Below, piece after piece: positions 3,869 to 37,267 of a stretch of DNA of 64,000 bases (its first letter is position 1; each line of letters opens with the position of its first letter). The position numbers and the translations under genes are program-made. The DNA is taken from assembly GCA_029975915.1 (NCBI GenBank), contig JARKOC010000138.1, positions 1 to 64,000 of the forward strand, written 5' to 3'. The stretch is from Bryobacteraceae bacterium (lineage in GTDB: Bacteria > Acidobacteriota > Terriglobia > Bryobacterales > Bryobacteraceae). The notes under the pieces are model-generated. The model was given only the letters and a program-made list of their open reading frames with translations, ran no database searches and was not told the DNA's origin.

Positions 3869-4961
3869 TCGCTACCTCCGGCAAGAAATAGAAAGAAATG
3901 CCCAGCATGACATAAACCGCTAGCAGCATCATCCCTTCCAGCCAGTTCGACTCGCCATCGCTGGCTGACTGGGCCGTGATGAATACTGCCAGCACCACCG
4001 CCAGCACCTCGGCCGGCGTAAACACAAGGTCCATCGGTCCAGGGCCGATGAAGTAGCTCACGATGACGAGCAGCGGCGCGACGAACAGCGCAACCTGGAT
4101 ACTCGAACCGATGGAGATCGAGATGCTAAGATCCATGCGGTTCTTCAGCGCAACCAGGATCGCCGTCGAGTGTTCCGCGGCATTGCCGATGATGGCCACG
4201 ACGATCACGCCGACGAAGATGCTCGTCATGCCAAAAGCGTGCGCGGCGTGCTCCACGCTTCCCACCAGCGTCTCGCTCACCCATGCGATGAAAAACGTCG
4301 CCACCGCCAAAACCACGATCGACTTGGTCAGGCTCCAGTGCGCGTGTCCCGCCTCGGTGGCCACGTCTTCACTCGACGGCAACCCCCGGAACAGTTCCTT
4401 GTGCGTAATCAGCGAGAACACCAGGCTCGCAACATAGACTGCCAGCAGGACGATGGCGACCTCCAGGCTAAGGTCCTTCTCCCTGGGCCATCCTTTGGGC
4501 CCGGCAATGTGGTGGAACGACGCCGGGATCACCAGCGCGATCGCCGCCAGCGTCAGCAGCGTCGATTGCGCCCTTGCCGCGGCCGCCTGAAATACCTGCA
4601 CACGGAATTTCAGCCCTCCAGCCAGCATCGCCAGTCCGGCCACAAGAAGGATGTTCCCGATGATCGAGCCTGTCAGCGACGCCTTCACCACTTCGTGCAG
4701 CCCTTTGCGGAGCGCTGCGATGGCGATGATCAATTCTGCCGCGTTGCCGAATGTCGCATTCAGCAGCCCGCCCACGCCTTCGCCCGTGTGGCTCGCCAGG
4801 TGCTCTGTCGCATGGCCCAGCCATCCGGCCAGCGGGAGAATCGCCAGACAGGCGCAGACGAAGATGGCCACATGCGCGTCAGGCGAGAAGTGCGGCAGCA
4901 GCAGCGTCGCTGGGACAAACACCAACAGCCAGTCAAGCGATGGTTTCAGGTATTTGGTCAT
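3825..4961 (-). CDS. Calcium/proton exchanger, CaCA superfamily
   Basis: A 378-residue polytopic membrane protein with about 11 hydrophobic segments. Both inverted alpha-repeats of the CAX family are visible: [16 protein letters not shown] near residue 73 and [17 protein letters not shown] near residue 260, each carrying the ion-liganding Glu. This is the ChaA/CAX type that exports Ca2+ (or Na+/K+) in exchange for H+. It lies inside a run of metabolic genes: its start overlaps the upstream DHDPS-like gene by 4 bp and its end overlaps the cyclase gene by 44 bp. Translational coupling is therefore likely. Ion specificity cannot be read from the sequence. Confidence 0.88.
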
Positions 4962-5917
4962 GCTCTCGGAGGAGTTGCCTCGTCCGCCGCCGCCCGCAGC
5001 GCCTTCAGCCGCTCCAGTTCCTCGTCGTTGAACTTTATATCCCGTCTACGGCAGACTGGCTCGATCGGCACGCCAGCCAGCTGCGCCAACACTTTCGCCG
5101 ATGCCGGGTACTTCTTCGCAACTGTCGGTTCGTTCGCGCGCACGAACTCCTGCAGCCGGTCCGACTTCTGTTTCAACACGGCCGACACCACGGCCGGATA
5201 GGCGTTTCCGCACACCCCGCAGAAACCGTGCCCGCCGGCGCGCACCGCATCGAGCATGATCGCCGCGTGCGCGTTGAAGATCTTAAGCGGTGTCCCGCGC
5301 ACCGCGGCCACCCGCTCCCGGATCACCTCAGTCTTTAGCGACACGTCTTTCATGAAGCAAAATCGCCCGCTTTGCCCGGCCCACCGCAGGATCTCGTTGC
5401 TGAGCAGCCGCTTGTAAGGACCAGGACGTTCATAGAAGCCCAGCCGCGTGCCCGCAACGGCTGCCATCAATGCCTCCATCCGCCCTTTCCACACCGCGTC
5501 ACTCTCCTGCTTGCCCGCCATCTGGTTGGTGATGATGACAAAGGCTTCAAGGCCGGTCTCCATCATGCGCCCGATAAACGGCTTGGCGGCATCCAATTCC
5601 CTCGACGGCATGCCACCCGCCACTACCGGAGTCTTGCCTGCCCGTTTTACCACCCTCCGCGCCACCTCTACCCGCTCGTCTGGCGTGAGCGACTCCACCT
5701 CGCTCGACGCGCAACAGGTGAACAGCCCCACTGCTCCATTTGCCAGGTACCAGTCGGTCAGCGCGTCTAAGCCATTCCAATCAATTGACTTGTCGGTCTT
5801 AAACGGCGTCAGCATCGCCGGCCAGAATCCGTCTGGCAGCGACTCTCTCTGGCCACCGAACGCCGGGACAAACGGCGCAGCCAGGGAGGTCAAGACGGCC
5901 CGGCGAGTCAACAGCAT
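4958..5917 (-). CDS. Exported dihydrodipicolinate synthase-family aldolase/lyase
   Basis: A 319-residue TIM-barrel protein of the DapA/NAL family. It begins with [15 protein letters not shown], an RR-type export signal, which is unusual for this normally cytosolic family but common for enzymes in this lineage. The family landmarks are GFYERPGP (the Tyr of the YxxP motif) and FMKDVSL (the Schiff-base Lys). The usual GGTGE motif is altered to CCASSEVES, so the substrate is probably not pyruvate plus aspartate semialdehyde. It is the first gene of the overlapping run that continues with the Ca2+/H+ exchanger, cyclase and SDR. A 168-bp gap separates it from the ATPase gene upstream. Confidence 0.8.
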
Positions 5918-6085: not shown

Positions 6086-8326
6086 CTACTGCTTCGCGCG
6101 CAATAGGCGCAGTCCGTTTAATGTGACCAGAAGCGTCGCGCCCATATCGGCCATCACCGCCATCCAGAGTGTCGCCGAACCAGTGGCAGCCGCCGCCAGG
6201 AATGCAAGCTTCAATCCCAGCGCCACGGAAATGTTCTGCTTGATCACTCGCGCTGCGCGCTGCGCATGGCGCACCAGGAATGGCAACCGGTTCAAGTCGG
6301 CCGCCATCAGGACGACATCGGCTGTCTCCACGGCGAGATCCGTCGCGTGAGGACCAAGCGAGATCGCGACGCTGGCTTGCGTCATCGCCTGCGCATCGTT
6401 GTATCCGTCGCCGACCATCGCCACCGAATTGTACTTGCTCTTGTAACGTGCTACCGCCGCCGCCTTTTCGTCCGGCAGCAGTCCTGCCTGGAGTTCCTCG
6501 ATGGGCAATGTGCCCATCACAGTGCGGGCAGCAGATTCGCTATCCCCTGTCAGCACTGCAATGTGCCCGATACCGGTCTCTCTCAGTCCCGACAATGCTC
6601 CCAAGGCTTCCGGCCGGGCTTCATCCGACAGTCCGGCCAGCGCAAGAGTTTCGCGTCCTCGTCCCAACAGGACGACGGTACAGCCCTTGTGCGCCAGGTC
6701 TTCGAACACTCTCGCCCGGCCGTCCAGTTCGGCGCCTTGTAGTTCCAACATACTCAAGCCGCCCGCCCAATATGTCTCGCCGTTCAAAGTTGCCTGGACG
6801 CCTCTGCCTGGAATCGCTTCGAACTCGGTGGGCGTTTCGTACTCGATGCCCTGCCCGGCGGCGAATTCGAGAATCGCCTTGCCCAGCGGATGCTCGCTGC
6901 GGGATTCAAGCGAAGCGAGCCGTGACAGCGCCTCCCTGTGATCTCTGCCGTTGAAGGACGTGAAGTGCGTGACGCTTGGCTTGCCCGTCGTCAGCACCCC
7001 CGTCTTGTCGAAAATGATCGATTTCAGCCGTGCCGTCTCCTCCAAAAAGCCCCCGCCCTTCACAAGCACGCCTTTGCGGGCGGCGGCGGCCAAGGCCGAA
7101 ACCATCGTCACCGGCGTCGAAATCACGAGAGCGCAGGGACATGAGATCAGCAGCACCACCATCCCCTGATAGAACCAATGGCCCCACTCGCCGCCCATGA
7201 ACAGCGGCGGAATCCCGATGACCAGGAATGCGATGGCGAAAACCGCCGGAGTGTACCAGCGGACGAATCTCTCGATGAAGAGTTCGGCTTGTGTGCGGCG
7301 TTGCGTGGATTCGGTCACCATCCGGAGCATGCGGGACACGGTAGTGTCTGATGCGTCCCGTATCGCTTTCACCTCAAGGTATCCACCGGAGTTCAATGTC
7401 CCGGCAAAGACTGCGCTCCCCGCAGTCTTTGGTACAGGAACCGACTCACCCGTGATGAGCGATTGATCGACATACGATTCACCCGAGCGCACTTCGCCGT
7501 CGCACGGAATCCGCTCGCCGGGTCTGACCGCCACAAGATCACCCGCCTTCACTTTGCTCGCGGCCATCCGGTGCTCGTGACCGTCATGCAGCACCGCCGC
7601 TTCCGCCGGGGCGGCCGTGAAAAGGCCTGTGACTGCCTGCCTCGCCCGCGACGCGCTCCAACCCTCGATCTGCACCGCCAAGGCGAACAGAAAAGCCAGT
7701 GATGCCCCTTCCATCCATTCGCCCAAAATGCACGCACCGCAAATCGAAATCGCTACCAGCAGGTTCATGTCCGGCCGGGCCGCGCGCAAGGACGCCCAGG
7801 CCTTCTTCACGAAAGGCGCGAAGCCGGCAGCGATGGACAAGGCAAACAGACTCACCACACCGGCATGGGGAGTATGCTCGTGGCGTTGGTGGGCAAGAAG
7901 TTCGAGAACCGTGCCGCCGTGCAGGACCGACTGCACCGCCGCTCCAGCAGCTAGAAAAACCAGGCTAGCTGCCGCCATGGTCCGGCGCACCAGCACCTCG
8001 CGCCTAGCCCGCTCCGGTTGGTCATCGCCGATCCACGGCTCGCACTTCAGACCAACTCCGGACACCGACGCCTGAATCGCCTCCAAGCTTGTCCGGCCAG
8101 GATCGAATTCGACCCTCATCCGGGCTTGGAAAATATCGAACTGAAGTTCATAGACTCCTGCGACCTTGCTCAATTCGCGACGGAGCAATGAAACCTCTTC
8201 CGAGCAGTCCATGCCTTGGACTCGGAAGTCGGCCTGAACTCGTTTTTTTGTTGAGGGACGAATATCAATAAGGTATCGCGTCAGGGGGGAAAACCGCAAG
8301 TCGCGCCTCTTGCCGGGCTGAGTCAC
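6086..8326 (-). CDS. zntA: P1B-2-type heavy-metal ATPase (Zn2+/Cd2+/Pb2+ exporter)
   Basis: A 746-residue pump. An N-terminal HMA domain (about 31-95) has GMDCSEE instead of GMxCxxC, a variant seen in Zn/Cd exporters. The actuator motif TGES and the membrane CPC (near 395) are followed by the phosphorylated DKTG (near 440), HPLGKA, and GDGYND (near 640). The last membrane pair has the Lys (NISVALGLKLAF) and Asp (MADMG) that mark P1B-2 pumps. The GTG start sits 77 bp from the start of the divergent ArsR-type regulator. The shared region holds a palindromic operator, so zinc- or cadmium-induced derepression is expected. The symbol is by family resemblance. Confidence 0.93.
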   Translation of the reverse strand: MTQPGKRRDLRFSPLTRYLIDIRPSTKKRVQADFRVQGMDCSEEVSLLRRELSKVAGVYELQFDIFQARMRVEFDPGRTSLEAIQASVSGVGLKCEPWIGDDQPERARREVLVRRTMAAASLVFLAAGAAVQSVLHGGTVLELLAHQRHEHTPHAGVVSLFALSIAAGFAPFVKKAWASLRAARPDMNLLVAISICGACILGEWMEGASLAFLFALAVQIEGWSASRARQAVTGLFTAAPAEAAVLHDGHEHRMAASKVKAGDLVAVRPGERIPCDGEVRSGESYVDQSLITGESVPVPKTAGSAVFAGTLNSGGYLEVKAIRDASDTTVSRMLRMVTESTQRRTQAELFIERFVRWYTPAVFAIAFLVIGIPPLFMGGEWGHWFYQGMVVLLISCPCALVISTPVTMVSALAAAARKGVLVKGGGFLEETARLKSIIFDKTGVLTTGKPSVTHFTSFNGRDHREALSRLASLESRSEHPLGKAILEFAAGQGIEYETPTEFEAIPGRGVQATLNGETYWAGGLSMLELQGAELDGRARVFEDLAHKGCTVVLLGRGRETLALAGLSDEARPEALGALSGLRETGIGHIAVLTGDSESAARTVMGTLPIEELQAGLLPDEKAAAVARYKSKYNSVAMVGDGYNDAQAMTQASVAISLGPHATDLAVETADVVLMAADLNRLPFLVRHAQRAARVIKQNISVALGLKLAFLAAAATGSATLWMAVMADMGATLLVTLNGLRLLRAKQ

Positions 8327-8339
8327 CTCTGTTTTTTGC

Positions 8340-8368
8340 TTGACAAGGATGCCAAGTCAGGTCATCAT
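8340..8368 (+). promoter_or_regulatory. Putative promoter of the ArsR-type regulator
   Basis: A perfect -35 hexamer TTGACA (8340-8345) is followed after 17 nt by CATCAT (8363-8368), a 4/6 match to the -10 consensus. Transcription would start near 8375, at the edge of the operator palindrome. The TTG of this -35 box could also open the reading frame, but promoter use argues for the downstream ATG at 8404. Confidence 0.5.
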
Positions 8369-8376
8369 CAAATTAT

Positions 8377-8398
8377 CACTTGCACAGTTATGCAAGTG
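8377..8398. promoter_or_regulatory. Operator palindrome of the zinc locus
   Basis: CACTTGCA and TGCAAGTG form a perfect 8-bp inverted repeat with a 6-nt spacer, between the divergent ATPase and ArsR-type genes and just downstream of the predicted promoter. Size and position match SmtB/ArsR operators, which are inverted repeats covering the start of transcription. Binding is inferred. Confidence 0.65.
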
Positions 8399-8403
8399 TT
8401 GTA

Positions 8404-8828
8404 TGAAAGCTGACACTAAAAGCCAACTCATGAGAACGGGCGCCGAACCCGAATGTGCGGCCCACGACCACGGCTCGCCCAGCAGGTCGCTTCCCGTGAA
8501 CGCCGAATCCCTGGAGCGAGCGTCGCTCCTGTTCCGCGCCATGGGCGACACGGCGCGTCTAAGGCTGCTCGGATTGCTGGCGCAAGGCCCGGCGTGCGTA
8601 TCGGAGTTGGCAGCCATCGAGGGCGAGACCGTCTCTACCATCTCCCAGCGTCTGCGCGTGTTACGTTCCGAGCGCCTGGTGAGCCGCCGCCGCGACGGCA
8701 AACATATCAACTACGCCCTGGCCGACCAGCATGTCCTCGACCTCGTTTTCAGCGCCATGGCCCACGCCAGCGAAACACCAGCGCAGGCGCCTCCCTTTTC
8801 CGCCCATCCAGAACAGGAGCAATCATGA
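8404..8828 (+). CDS. ArsR/SmtB-family metal-sensing repressor
   Basis: A winged-helix regulator of about 141 residues from the ATG at 8404. An in-frame TTG at 8340 would give 162 residues but would translate through the promoter and operator, so it is rejected. The core reads LFRAMGDTARLRLLGLLAQG, then CVSELAAIEGETVSTISQRLRVLRSERLVSRRRDGKHINYAL, the standard ArsR recognition helix and wing. The N terminus has CAAHDHG and the C terminus adds His residues, candidate metal ligands of a Zn/Cd sensor. Its stop overlaps the start of the His-rich gene (ATGA). It is divergent from the efflux ATPase, so it probably represses both directions from the palindrome at 8377-8398. Confidence 0.88.
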
Positions 8829-33348: not shown

Positions 33349-33477
33349 TGTTTTCTTCCTGTCTACAGCCTGAGTATCTGCAATGAGCTCGTTCCTCCCA
33401 ATAGAACGCAGGTTGTGATCTTTATGGTACCGGCTGGAGATCCCTTTGGTACCAGAATGTCGGCTAAAATGGCGCTC

Positions 33478-33951
33478 ATGTGGAACCTTCGTACTCCCTT
33501 CCTTGTGGCGCTAGCGACCTTTGCCCTCTTTGGCGCCGATAAGAAGCCGGTTCATCCTGCCGGCGCCGTCCTGGGCGGCCCTTACTCACCTGGCATCCTG
33601 GCCGGCGACACACTCTACGTGGCCGGACAGGTTGGCCGCACACCTGGCACCAACTCCTATCCTGAATCGTTCGAGGACGAGGTGAAGTACACTCTCGACA
33701 ATGTCGGCGCGATCCTCAAGGAAGCCGGCTACAGCTTCGATGATGCCGTCGCGGTCCAGGTGTACCTCACTGACATCGAACTGTTCCAGCGGATGAACGC
33801 CGTTTACATGAAATACTTCCCTGAGCCGCGCCCGGCGCGCACGACGGTCGGCATCGCCAAATTGGTTGGGCCGGCGCGGATCGAGATCACCGTCACCGCT
33901 TACAAGAAGGGCGGCGGGGCAAAGGCGGCGGTTAGACCCGCCAAGAAGTGA
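33478..33951 (+). CDS. Exported RidA-family protein
   Basis: About 157 residues from the ATG at 33478, which opens a signal peptide (MWNLRTPFLVALATFALFGA). An ATG at 33469 would serve equally, and the frame is open from 33415. RidA (YjgF/UK114) features are YSPGILAGDTLYVAGQVG, AVQVYLTDIELFQRMNAVY, and PARTTVGIAKLVGPARIEI with the conserved Arg. Cytosolic RidA deaminates reactive enamine/imine intermediates; the exported form's substrate is unknown. TAAAAT (33465-33470) lies 7 nt before the ATG, so the transcript may be leaderless. A Lys/Ala-rich tail ends the protein. Confidence 0.85.
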   Translation: MWNLRTPFLVALATFALFGADKKPVHPAGAVLGGPYSPGILAGDTLYVAGQVGRTPGTNSYPESFEDEVKYTLDNVGAILKEAGYSFDDAVAVQVYLTDIELFQRMNAVYMKYFPEPRPARTTVGIAKLVGPARIEITVTAYKKGGGAKAAVRPAKK

Positions 33952-34956: not shown

Positions 34957-35979
34957 ATGGCCGGAAAAATCGAAGGCATCCTCACACCGACCCTGGTCCC
35001 GCTCGACGAATCCGGGCAGATCAACGAGGCCGAATACCGCCGGTTCCTGAACTGGCTGATCGAACGCGGCGTCCACGGCCTTTACCCGAACGGTTCAACA
35101 GGTGAATTCACCCGCCTCACCGCCGAGGAACGGCGCCGCATCGCCCGAATCACTTGCGAGGAGGCCCGCGGGCGCGTCCCTGTTCTGGCCGGCGCCGCCG
35201 AAGCCAACACGCGCGAAACCATCAAGGCTTGCGAAGCCTATCACGAGTTCGGCGCGCGCGCCGTCGCCATCGTCTCGCCGATCTACTACCGCCTCGCACC
35301 CGATTCCGTCTACGCCTACTTCGCAGAGATCGCCCGGAACGTCCCCATCGACGTGACGCTCTACAATATTCCGCTGTTTGCCAGCCCCATCGACCTGGCC
35401 ACGATCACCCGGCTGGCGAATGACTTCCCGCGCATCGTCGGCATCAAGGACTCCTCGGGCGACGTCGCCTTCATGCTCCGAATGATAGCCGCCATTCGCC
35501 CTTCCCGGCCCGACTTTTCGTTCCTCACCGGCTGGGATGTCGTCCTGACTCCCATGATGCTCACCGGTTGCGACGGCGGCACCAATGCCACGTCGAACGT
35601 CGTTCCCGAACTCACCCGCAAGCTGTACGACCTGAACCGCGCCGGCCGCCTCGATGAGGCGATGAAACTGCAATACCGCATCCAGGAACTCTTCGACCAC
35701 ATGCTGTTCCAATACGAGTTCCCGGACGGCTTCCGGCTGGGCGCCGAGCTGCGCGGCTTCAAGATGGGCCATGGGCGGCAGCCGCTCACTCCTAAGCAGG
35801 AAGCGGCGAAAGAGTCCCTGGCTGGCATCCTTCAGTGTCTGTTGTCGTCCAACGATCTGGTTGCGCCGCCCTCCGGAGGATGCGCTCCGAAGTCGATCGG
35901 CAAAGACGACCTGGACGCCATCGTTTCCAAGGTATTGGATGAACTTGAACGCAAGGGAGACCTGTGGAAGACGCGGTAG
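34957..35979 (+). CDS. DHDPS/NAL-family aldolase with putative encapsulation-peptide tail
   Basis: A 340-residue cytosolic TIM-barrel lyase. GSTGE (46-50), LYNIP (Tyr136) and VGIKDSSGD (Schiff-base Lys164) are intact, so it should be an active class I aldolase of the DapA/N-acetylneuraminate lyase family. The barrel ends near 295. It is followed by a Pro/Gly linker ([12 protein letters not shown], 302-313) and a predicted amphipathic helix [20 protein letters not shown] (315-334). Linker plus helix of this type is how cargo enzymes are targeted to bacterial microcompartments. The gene overlaps the next one, a BMC shell protein, by 16 bp. Substrate unknown. Confidence 0.87.
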
Positions 35980-36596
35980 TCTTTGTCGAGGTCGGCGGCT
36001 GGTCTCCGGCCATGGTCATCCTCGATGCCATGGAGAAGACGGCCGGGGTGCGCGTGCTTCAAGCCGAATTGAACGACCAGCCGGGCGTTTGCATCAAGAT
36101 GCACGGTTCACTCGGCGATGCGCGGGCTGCCGCTGAATCCGCCGCACAGATTGCACGGCAGATGCAGGTGGCTTGCGTGGTCGACGTGATCCCGTCGCCG
36201 GCGCCGGGGTCGGAGTCTGCGTTCAATCCGCCGCCCGATTACAACGTGCTGTTCGAGCAGGCCACGGTCCACGTGCCTCCGCCAGCCCCCAAGCGAAAGG
36301 AAAAAGTGAAAACCGTGTCCATGAACTCTGAATTCGCCGTCGGCCTGATTGAAACCCAGGGCTTCACCGCCGTTTTCGAGGCGATCGACACGGCGCTGAA
36401 AACCGCCGCCGTCGAAGTGCTGGCCCGCGAAAAGCTGGGCGGCGGCTACATCACCGTGGTCATCAAGGGCGACGTCGCCGCCGTCTCCGCCGCTGTCGAT
36501 GCAGCCAAAGCGAAGGTGGACGGCTTGGGCAGACTCATCGCCGCCCACGTCATCGCCAACCCTTCGCCCGGCGTGCTGACGCTTTTGCCTAAATAG
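35964..36596 (+). CDS. Tandem-domain bacterial microcompartment shell protein (BMC-T-like)
   Basis: 210 residues from a GTG start preceded by AAGGGAG at 5 nt. Residues 122-207 are a canonical BMC domain: [42 protein letters not shown] and [12 protein letters not shown]. Residues 4-79 follow the same pattern in diverged form: [19 protein letters not shown], then [16 protein letters not shown], then [10 protein letters not shown]. The two are joined by a 40-residue Pro-rich and Lys-rich linker. Such proteins form pseudohexameric trimers in microcompartment shells. No hexamer-only (BMC-H) or pentamer (BMC-P) gene is seen nearby. Translation is coupled to the aldolase upstream. An internal GTG at 36306 could also make the second domain alone. 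Confidence 0.85.
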
Positions 36597-36805: not shown

Positions 36806-37267
36806 ATGAAACAGAACACCGCAAAGCGTAGAGAATTCATGACCTCGGCCACGGCCCTCGGCGGCTTGGCCGCACTGCCCATGATGGCCGCCGCCGCTGA
36901 AGGCGGACCGCGCGCCAAAGCGCCAGGCGGCGTCCGCGTCGGCAACCTCTATTTCAGCTTCGGTCTCACCGGCGAACGCGAGGAGGCCCGAAAGGATCCG
37001 CTGACCTTCGGCGGCGACGTCAAGGAACAGACCGAACGCATCATGAAGATGCACAAGGCCAATCTCGAAGCCATGGGCTCGTCGCTTGAAAACGTCATCA
37101 AAGTCACCGTTTTCATGGCCGACGTCAAGACCGAGAAGCGCGCCATGAACGCCGCCTACGCGCCATTCTTTCCCAAGGACGCGCCGGCGCGCTCGTGTGT
37201 CGGCGTCGAATTTCCGGACGTTGCCACTCGCGTCGAAATCGAACTGGTGGCTTACATTCCTTCGTAG
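36806..37267 (+). CDS. Tat-exported RidA-family protein
   Basis: A 153-residue protein. KRREFMTSATALGGLAALPM is a twin-arginine signal. The mature part is a RidA/YjgF domain: VRVGNLYFSFGLTG, LENVIKVTVFMADVKTEKRAMNAAY and PARSCVGVEFPD, with the catalytic-type Arg, ending VEIELVAYIPS with the conserved Glu. It lies 209 bp after the BMC gene and has its own untranslated region, so it need not be part of that unit. Export also argues against a role inside a microcompartment. Confidence 0.87.
   Translation: MKQNTAKRREFMTSATALGGLAALPMMAAAAEGGPRAKAPGGVRVGNLYFSFGLTGEREEARKDPLTFGGDVKEQTERIMKMHKANLEAMGSSLENVIKVTVFMADVKTEKRAMNAAYAPFFPKDAPARSCVGVEFPDVATRVEIELVAYIPS

Follow-up and report, generated by a model that had tools for sequence, protein, structure and literature searches.

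A tailed class I aldolase paired with a tandem-domain shell protein: a probable satellite of a fragmented bacterial microcompartment

In a 64-kb stretch of Bryobacteraceae DNA (hereafter the window), a class I aldolase gene of the DHDPS/NAL superfamily runs into a gene for a tandem-domain shell protein (BMC-T) of bacterial microcompartments (BMCs). We regard this pair as probably a satellite of a fragmented BMC, in which the aldolase would be targeted by its C-terminal tail, the BMC-T would serve as a pore tile, and the aldolase would act as a second signature enzyme of the compartment, in some lineages as a replacement. The satellite is real, conserved and of a known organelle kind, and its cargo enzyme was not found described for BMCs within the limited literature covered. 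In close relatives the other parts of a protein microcompartment are encoded at other sites in the genome, and the aldolase is therefore likely to be cargo of that compartment, as a second and in some lineages perhaps the sole enzyme that makes its aldehyde.

Results and discussion

The locus and its shell protein

Both open reading frames lie on the + strand with an overlap of 16 nt (Table 1), and the reading frames, Pfam matches, AlphaFold2 models and alignments bear out the first-pass annotation of an aldolase overlapped by a protein with two BMC domains. That annotation had called one domain canonical and one diverged; the first is indeed the more diverged, and the wording is amended here in that both domains are recognised. 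The BMC-T carries two PF00936 stretches, its domains are non-permuted, and a single-chain AlphaFold2 model (pLDDT 89.5) contains both of them. Its closest structure is the synthetic BMC-H tandem 6ner (TM 0.75-0.77), and natural tandem shell proteins reach TM values of at most 0.40 over the whole chain. Beyond the BMC-T, no homologue of other shell genes, BMC-H and BMC-P included, was found in the window, which with one BMC-T gene and one enzyme shows the local layout expected of a BMC satellite. The window also encodes, at 4958-5917 (- strand), a distant further member of the DHDPS family that lacks the tail; its best model is DapA (50 bits), and it is at most 23% identical to the tailed family.

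Table 1. Features of the aldolase/BMC-T pair, in window coordinates
Feature	Position	Strand	Basis
DHDPS/NAL-superfamily class I aldolase gene with C-terminal extension	34957..35979	+	340 aa, ATG; PF00701 E 1e-62; K164 and Y136 invariant (38 homologues)
Aldolase catalytic barrel, residues 1-294	34957..35838	+	Pfam match 5-293; AlphaFold2 model; best solved fold YagE 2v8z
Aldolase Pro/Gly/Cys linker, residues 295-316	35839..35904	+	lowest model confidence; P305, G308 and C309 kept in 97-98% of 60 rows
Predicted encapsulation-type helix [18 protein letters not shown], residues 317-334	35905..35958	+	AlphaFold2 helix 316-332; residue conservation; amphipathicity
Tandem-domain BMC-T shell protein gene	35964..36596	+	210 aa, GTG; PF00936 in two stretches, E 5.7e-33; AlphaFold2: two BMC folds
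First BMC domain, residues about 3-77, more diverged	35970..36194	+	model secondary structure; conserved ND at residues 37-38
Second BMC domain, residues 125-200, canonical	36336..36563	+	best Pfam stretch; invariant EKLGGG at 156-161 (alignment, 30 homologues)

Conservation of the pair

When species genomes were scanned for the BMC-T, 93 relatives came up, and 80 of their loci were retained. The aldolase lies directly upstream of the BMC-T on the same strand in 62 of the 80 (the linked loci), and because of this conservation the pairing is more than chance. By the chosen starts, the intergenic gap ranges from -16 to +108 bp in 61 of the linked loci, the remaining one (L080) being disrupted. 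One further locus, L004, starts near a contig edge, and in its genome the aldolase lies close to where a different contig ends. The remaining 17 loci, planctomycete or verrucomicrobial by record title, have a solitary BMC-T; the tailed aldolase occurs elsewhere in 15 of these genomes with 56-65% identity, and G360 and G374 are without it. Two records deserve a remark. The pair copy with disrupted reading frames in L080 (8990-10614) comes, to judge by the titles, from an isolate that also has an intact pair (L028), and L032, a record titled Arcobacter, is probably a mis-assigned contig since its aldolase nests with that of Bryobacteraceae L035.

The flanks are otherwise variable, with the widest flank cluster recurring in 11 of 62 linked loci by crude gene calls; flanking genes were rejected as operon partners for want of a conserved flank or pathway. 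At the set cut-off, L001 and L002 are the only loci that share the window's RidA-, EEP- and PEBP-type neighbours, apart from one weak RidA match. Further neighbour tests covered the 47 linked loci longer than 9 kb, and the RraA-type and second RidA-type neighbours were found in none of them. In the window two RidA-family proteins (33415-33951 and 36806-37267) flank the pair on its strand; of these, the upstream protein has counterparts in L001 and L002 only.

The linker and the C-terminal helix

In the AlphaFold2 model of the aldolase (38-row alignment, mean pLDDT 90), a barrel leads through a poorly ordered linker to a helix that stands apart (residues 316-332); linker residues 311-320 have a mean pLDDT of 53, and residues 313-316 fall below 50. 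In an alignment of 60 rows, comprising the window and 59 of the 62 linked loci (L006 and L034 were left out as too short, L080 as broken), V326 and L330 are conserved in 95% and G334 in 100%. The helix of the window is amphipathic, with a hydrophobic moment of 0.52 against a shuffle mean of 0.25 (p 0.027), and four other aldolase tails, tested singly, gave p values of 0.03, 0.12, 0.09 and 0.06; the amphipathicity is modest, and the tail of a class II aldolase in L141 is not amphipathic by the same measure (p 0.48). A tail pattern, written after the tails were seen, matches 58 of 61 linked homologues (61 of the 62 linked rows) versus 0 of 10 tail-less DHDPS relatives, the latter being those that passed the ORF filter among 29 loci offered.

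The helix was expected from the first-pass annotation to be retained in homologues beside the BMC gene; it is retained there, and also where both genes lie apart. Among unlinked planctomycete aldolases it is present in every copy readable to its end (12 of 15 from the solitary-BMC-T genomes and 10 of 12 from a draw of genomes, one gene being common to the two sets), and no BMC gene adjoining these copies was seen in the stretches read. In a tree of the aldolases, from which one row (L227) was left out for a frame error, the 73 tail-bearing rows group in a single clade (100/98) that leaves out the four tail-less proteins and the paralogue of the window. The tailed form is found in G017 only, among the matches listed for 149 genomes of the acidobacterial phylum; none of the other DHDPS-family matches listed there exceeds 37% identity, and only one of them extends past residue 315.

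Encapsulation peptides are described in the catalogue of Sutter 2021 (PMC8217296, main text) as terminal amphipathic helices of 15-20 residues on a flexible linker, and the aldolase tail has this form in sequence, in model and in helical moment. The tail resembles a cargo-targeting peptide and is predicted, as the likely case, to carry the enzyme into a shell. Another explanation would be a cytosolic aldolase that stands by chance beside a shell gene and uses its helix for oligomer contacts, not for encapsulation. In its favour, DHDPS-family enzymes are common (at least one in 101 of the 149 phylum genomes); however, the linkage together with co-occurrence in two phyla, the retention of the tail in unlinked copies, and the low-confidence linker that precedes it in the model make this explanation improbable.

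The rest of the compartment in relatives

For other shell genes we searched 30 genomes with the BMC-T, 29 with the pair in place and the 30th (that of L004) with the pair genes on two contigs. Further BMC-domain matches occur in 30 of 30, BMC-P genes in 29 of 30, and three BMC-P in 28. Closed BMC shells need pentamers. A self-contained mini compartment or scaffold built from the BMC-T by itself would agree with the window, where no other shell-gene homologue is found, but these counts and the need for pentamers speak so clearly against it that it is the least credible of the explanations considered, and it was rejected on the shell genes of the relatives. Of the two possibilities left by the first-pass annotation, the satellite of a shell encoded elsewhere is upheld, and the small compartment or scaffold is not supported because the relatives do not rely on the BMC-T alone. 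The presence of shell genes in the window's own genome is inferred from these relatives. Genome G013 (that of L018) has the pair and five BMC-domain matches with no BMC-P match; either its assembly is incomplete or its shell lacks recognised pentamers.

The nearest relatives illustrate what such a compartment would contain. G001 shares 86% identity with the window in the aldolase and 83% in the BMC-T. On the contig of its pair, about 94 kb away, lie a C-terminally tailed class II aldolase (PF00596), a BMC-H and three BMC-P genes; another contig carries a BMC-H adjoining an aldehyde dehydrogenase, for which the best model is the CoA-acylating acetaldehyde type, below cut-off; and a third contig carries a PduT-like tandem BMC protein, the counterpart of which in G017 lies beside an RnfC/PduS-like protein. 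The PVM/ACI-type set of class II aldolase, BMC-H, BMC-P triplet and aldehyde dehydrogenase is present in both G001 and G002. The planctomycete loci read look like PVM loci, with a DeoR-type regulator, PTAC, aldehyde dehydrogenase and class II aldolase, scanned in some and judged by eye in the rest.

Two side observations concern the BMC aldehyde dehydrogenase. A protein of about 163 aa follows its gene in several genomes (L142 6331-6825 and L151 7482-7970, both on the - strand), and no Pfam family was found for the L142 copy. The aldehyde dehydrogenase of L142 itself (6848-8779, - strand) has a long C-terminal extension, the end of which resembles, by eye, a separate PVM-locus protein (L155 9912-10613).

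Co-occurrence with shell genes in two phyla

Among 200 genomes of the class of G017, the tailed aldolase occurs in 14, and the orthologous BMC-T occurs in the same 14, adjacent in each. BMC-P genes are found in 77 of the 200, that is, in 13 of the 14 aldolase genomes versus 64 of the 186 others (Fisher p 2e-5, relatedness uncorrected); the exception, G310, has the pair and no BMC-P match, and 64 of the 77 BMC-P genomes are without the aldolase/BMC-T module. In Planctomycetota (199 genomes) the tailed aldolase occurs in 12 and BMC-P in 74, with BMC-P in 12 of 12 aldolase genomes versus 62 of 187 others (Fisher p 4e-6, relatedness uncorrected). The BMC-T is found at E <= 1e-25 in 1 of the 199, and a tandem BMC protein of any kind is absent from 10 of the 12 planctomycetes with the tailed aldolase and present in two. 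There the aldolase therefore follows the compartment, not the tile, and a dedicated pore is not general. The tie between aldolase and BMC-T drawn at first holds in the acidobacterial class (14 of 14 adjacent) and is looser in Planctomycetota, so strict coupling was rejected.

Coexistence with the class II aldolase, or its replacement

To compare gene content, the class II aldolase was scored within 8 kb of BMC-P in the BMC-P genomes of the class draw, of which the module-negative ones with a listed position numbered 59. It stands beside BMC-P in 58 of these 59; in G212, the one that differs, it lies near a contig edge. Of the 13 module-bearing genomes, 6 (G017, G020, G251, G269, G311 and G353) lack it next to the shell genes, versus 1 of the 59 module-negative ones (p 7e-5), and the other seven (G002, G012, G021, G022, G026, G220 and G346) have it there; when the 5 position-less module-negative genomes are all scored as lacking it, the contrast becomes 6 of 13 versus 6 of 64 (p 0.004). 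In G017, G020, G251, G269 and G311 the BMC-H, the BMC-P and the usual upstream neighbour, which we take to be a DUF2911-type gene, are in place with the class II aldolase missing between them; in G353 it is missing with both upstream neighbours in place. Outside the draw, it is also absent from the stretches read in G009 and G024. Five of the six genomes that lack it share one gene arrangement and may represent one event.

The contrast of 6 of 13 with 1 of 59 hints that one aldolase can replace the other. At the same time, 18 of the 30 module genomes, among them the window's closest kin G001 and G002, retain the class II aldolase within the short BMC locus; coexistence is therefore the rule, and replacement a minority outcome of perhaps few events. 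In G220 two different BMC loci were observed on contigs C315 and C11 (L249, L250), one with and one without the class II aldolase, plus a satellite pair.

Comparison with catalogued compartments

Among catalogued compartments, the gene sets of the relatives fit the PVM type, the ACI type and the fragmented compartments that have a BMC-P triplet. PVM and PVM-like BMCs are associated with L-fucose and L-rhamnose and with a class II aldolase (Axen 2014, PMC4207490; Sutter 2021, PMC8217296, in the passages on these types). Class II aldolase, aldehyde dehydrogenase, BMC-H and three BMC-P are likewise found in relatives carrying the tailed aldolase; the differences are that neither source mentions a class I aldolase in its PVM passages and that the class I gene here lies outside the main locus. 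As described in the main text of PMC8217296, the ACI BMC has a tailed class II aldolase, a BMC-P triplet, a BMC-H and a satellite aldehyde dehydrogenase, which is the set of the nearest relatives; however, it is mainly from Acidobacteria subdivisions 4 and 6, whereas the genomes here are titled Solibacter/Bryobacterales, and no DHDPS-family enzyme is named for it in that text. The FRAG BMCs of the same text share with the relatives here scattered shell loci, a BMC-P triplet and an aldehyde dehydrogenase near one shell gene, but in the genomes studied here a class II aldolase is usually beside the BMC-P genes. The EUT module satellites of that text, like our pair, combine a signature enzyme with one tandem shell protein as a functional add-on to a main BMC; they consist of EutA/B/C and an EutL-type BMC-T, in contrast to the class I aldolase and the tile with two non-permuted domains here.

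According to the main text of PMC8217296, ACI, FRAG1-7, HO, MIC2-7 and MUF2-3 have an aldehyde dehydrogenase but no obvious aldehyde-making enzyme. The terms dihydrodipicolinate, DHDPS and pfam00701 do not occur in that main text, and dihydrodipicolinate was not found in the passages of PMC4207490. No description of a tailed class I aldolase as BMC cargo was found in the literature searched; supplementary tables might list one.

Identity and candidate chemistry of the aldolase

K164, Y136, G46, S47, G49 and E50 show no variation across 38 aligned homologues. The closest solved fold is YagE (2v8z; TM 0.80 by query length, 30% identity), by PDB title a probable 2-keto-3-deoxygalactonate aldolase. 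Fold and Schiff-base lysine are shared with YagE, NAL and DapA; however, the fold matches listed are at most 30% identical, GW[D/E] in the family of the window stands against GYD in YagE and GDD in DapA, and the alignments with solved members stop near residue 294, without the linker or helix. PF00701 membership, and DapA and NAL models that match below their cut-offs, would be compatible with a housekeeping DapA or N-acetylneuraminate lyase. Against these identities, the enzyme scores 164 versus a cut-off of 206 bits for DapA, and 141 versus 382 and 149 versus 281 bits for NAL, Phe141 aligns with the substrate arginine of the DapA YN-P segment, and G017 has three further DHDPS-family genes; they are very improbable, and both were rejected on the curated-model scores. 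The archaeal KDG-aldolase model (128 versus a cut-off of 390 bits) and KdgD also leave it below cut-off. The sub-cut-off scores, Phe141 and GW[D/E] would suit a pyruvate-forming aldolase acting on a polyhydroxy 2-keto acid.

Our best guess for the candidate substrate is a 2-keto-3-deoxy sugar acid split to pyruvate and lactaldehyde. Lactaldehyde comes first on grounds of economy, which is not a demonstration: the compartment's class II aldolase belongs to the type that is assigned to fucose/rhamnose BMCs. With the same satellite and targeting, the substrate might instead be KDG, 2-keto-3-deoxygalactonate or -pentonate, giving pyruvate and glyceraldehyde or glycolaldehyde, and the compartment would therefore serve a different sugar from the class II aldolase. 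YagE as the best fold match points this way, as does a KDG-kinase-like gene directly upstream in L026; but such a neighbour turned up just once among the 47 linked loci, and an enolase-superfamily sugar-acid dehydratase-like neighbour (9 of 47) and a fuconolactonase-like one (5 of 47), both mostly in related genomes, are commoner. Together with the fucose/rhamnose tie of the class II aldolase, this leaves the other-aldehyde chemistry rather unlikely, though it deserves consideration. All three kinds of neighbour were missing from 20 other BMC loci and from 13 unlinked BMC-T loci, and in the subset of loci that have them they hint at sugar-acid pathways.

Conclusions

In the satellite reading that we prefer, the C-terminal helix of the aldolase would bind the shell interior as known encapsulation peptides do, and the enclosed enzyme would cleave a 2-keto-3-deoxy sugar acid to give pyruvate plus an aldehyde, lactaldehyde at best guess, which the aldehyde dehydrogenase of the compartment would oxidise before leakage. 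The class I aldolase would then be a second signature enzyme of a compartment also fed by the class II aldolase, or in some lineages its replacement, and the BMC-T may be a dedicated tile or pore for substrate entry or pyruvate exit.

We propose more tentatively, and at somewhat less than even chance, that the tailed DHDPS-superfamily aldolase is an overlooked signature enzyme of fucose/rhamnose BMCs across phyla and has displaced the class II aldolase in several acidobacterial lineages. If so, two routes to the same aldehyde, a sugar-phosphate one and a non-phosphorylating one by way of 2-keto-3-deoxy sugar acids, would share one shell, and signature enzymes would have been swapped within a conserved shell. 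Whether its gene lies at a satellite or stands by itself, where searches around shell genes would not find it, the tailed aldolase is a candidate for the aldehyde-making enzyme in this group of compartments. It would mean, if true, that a shell can gain or exchange a signature enzyme while its core stays, and it would provide a new C-terminal targeting peptide plus, in Acidobacteria, a matching tile.
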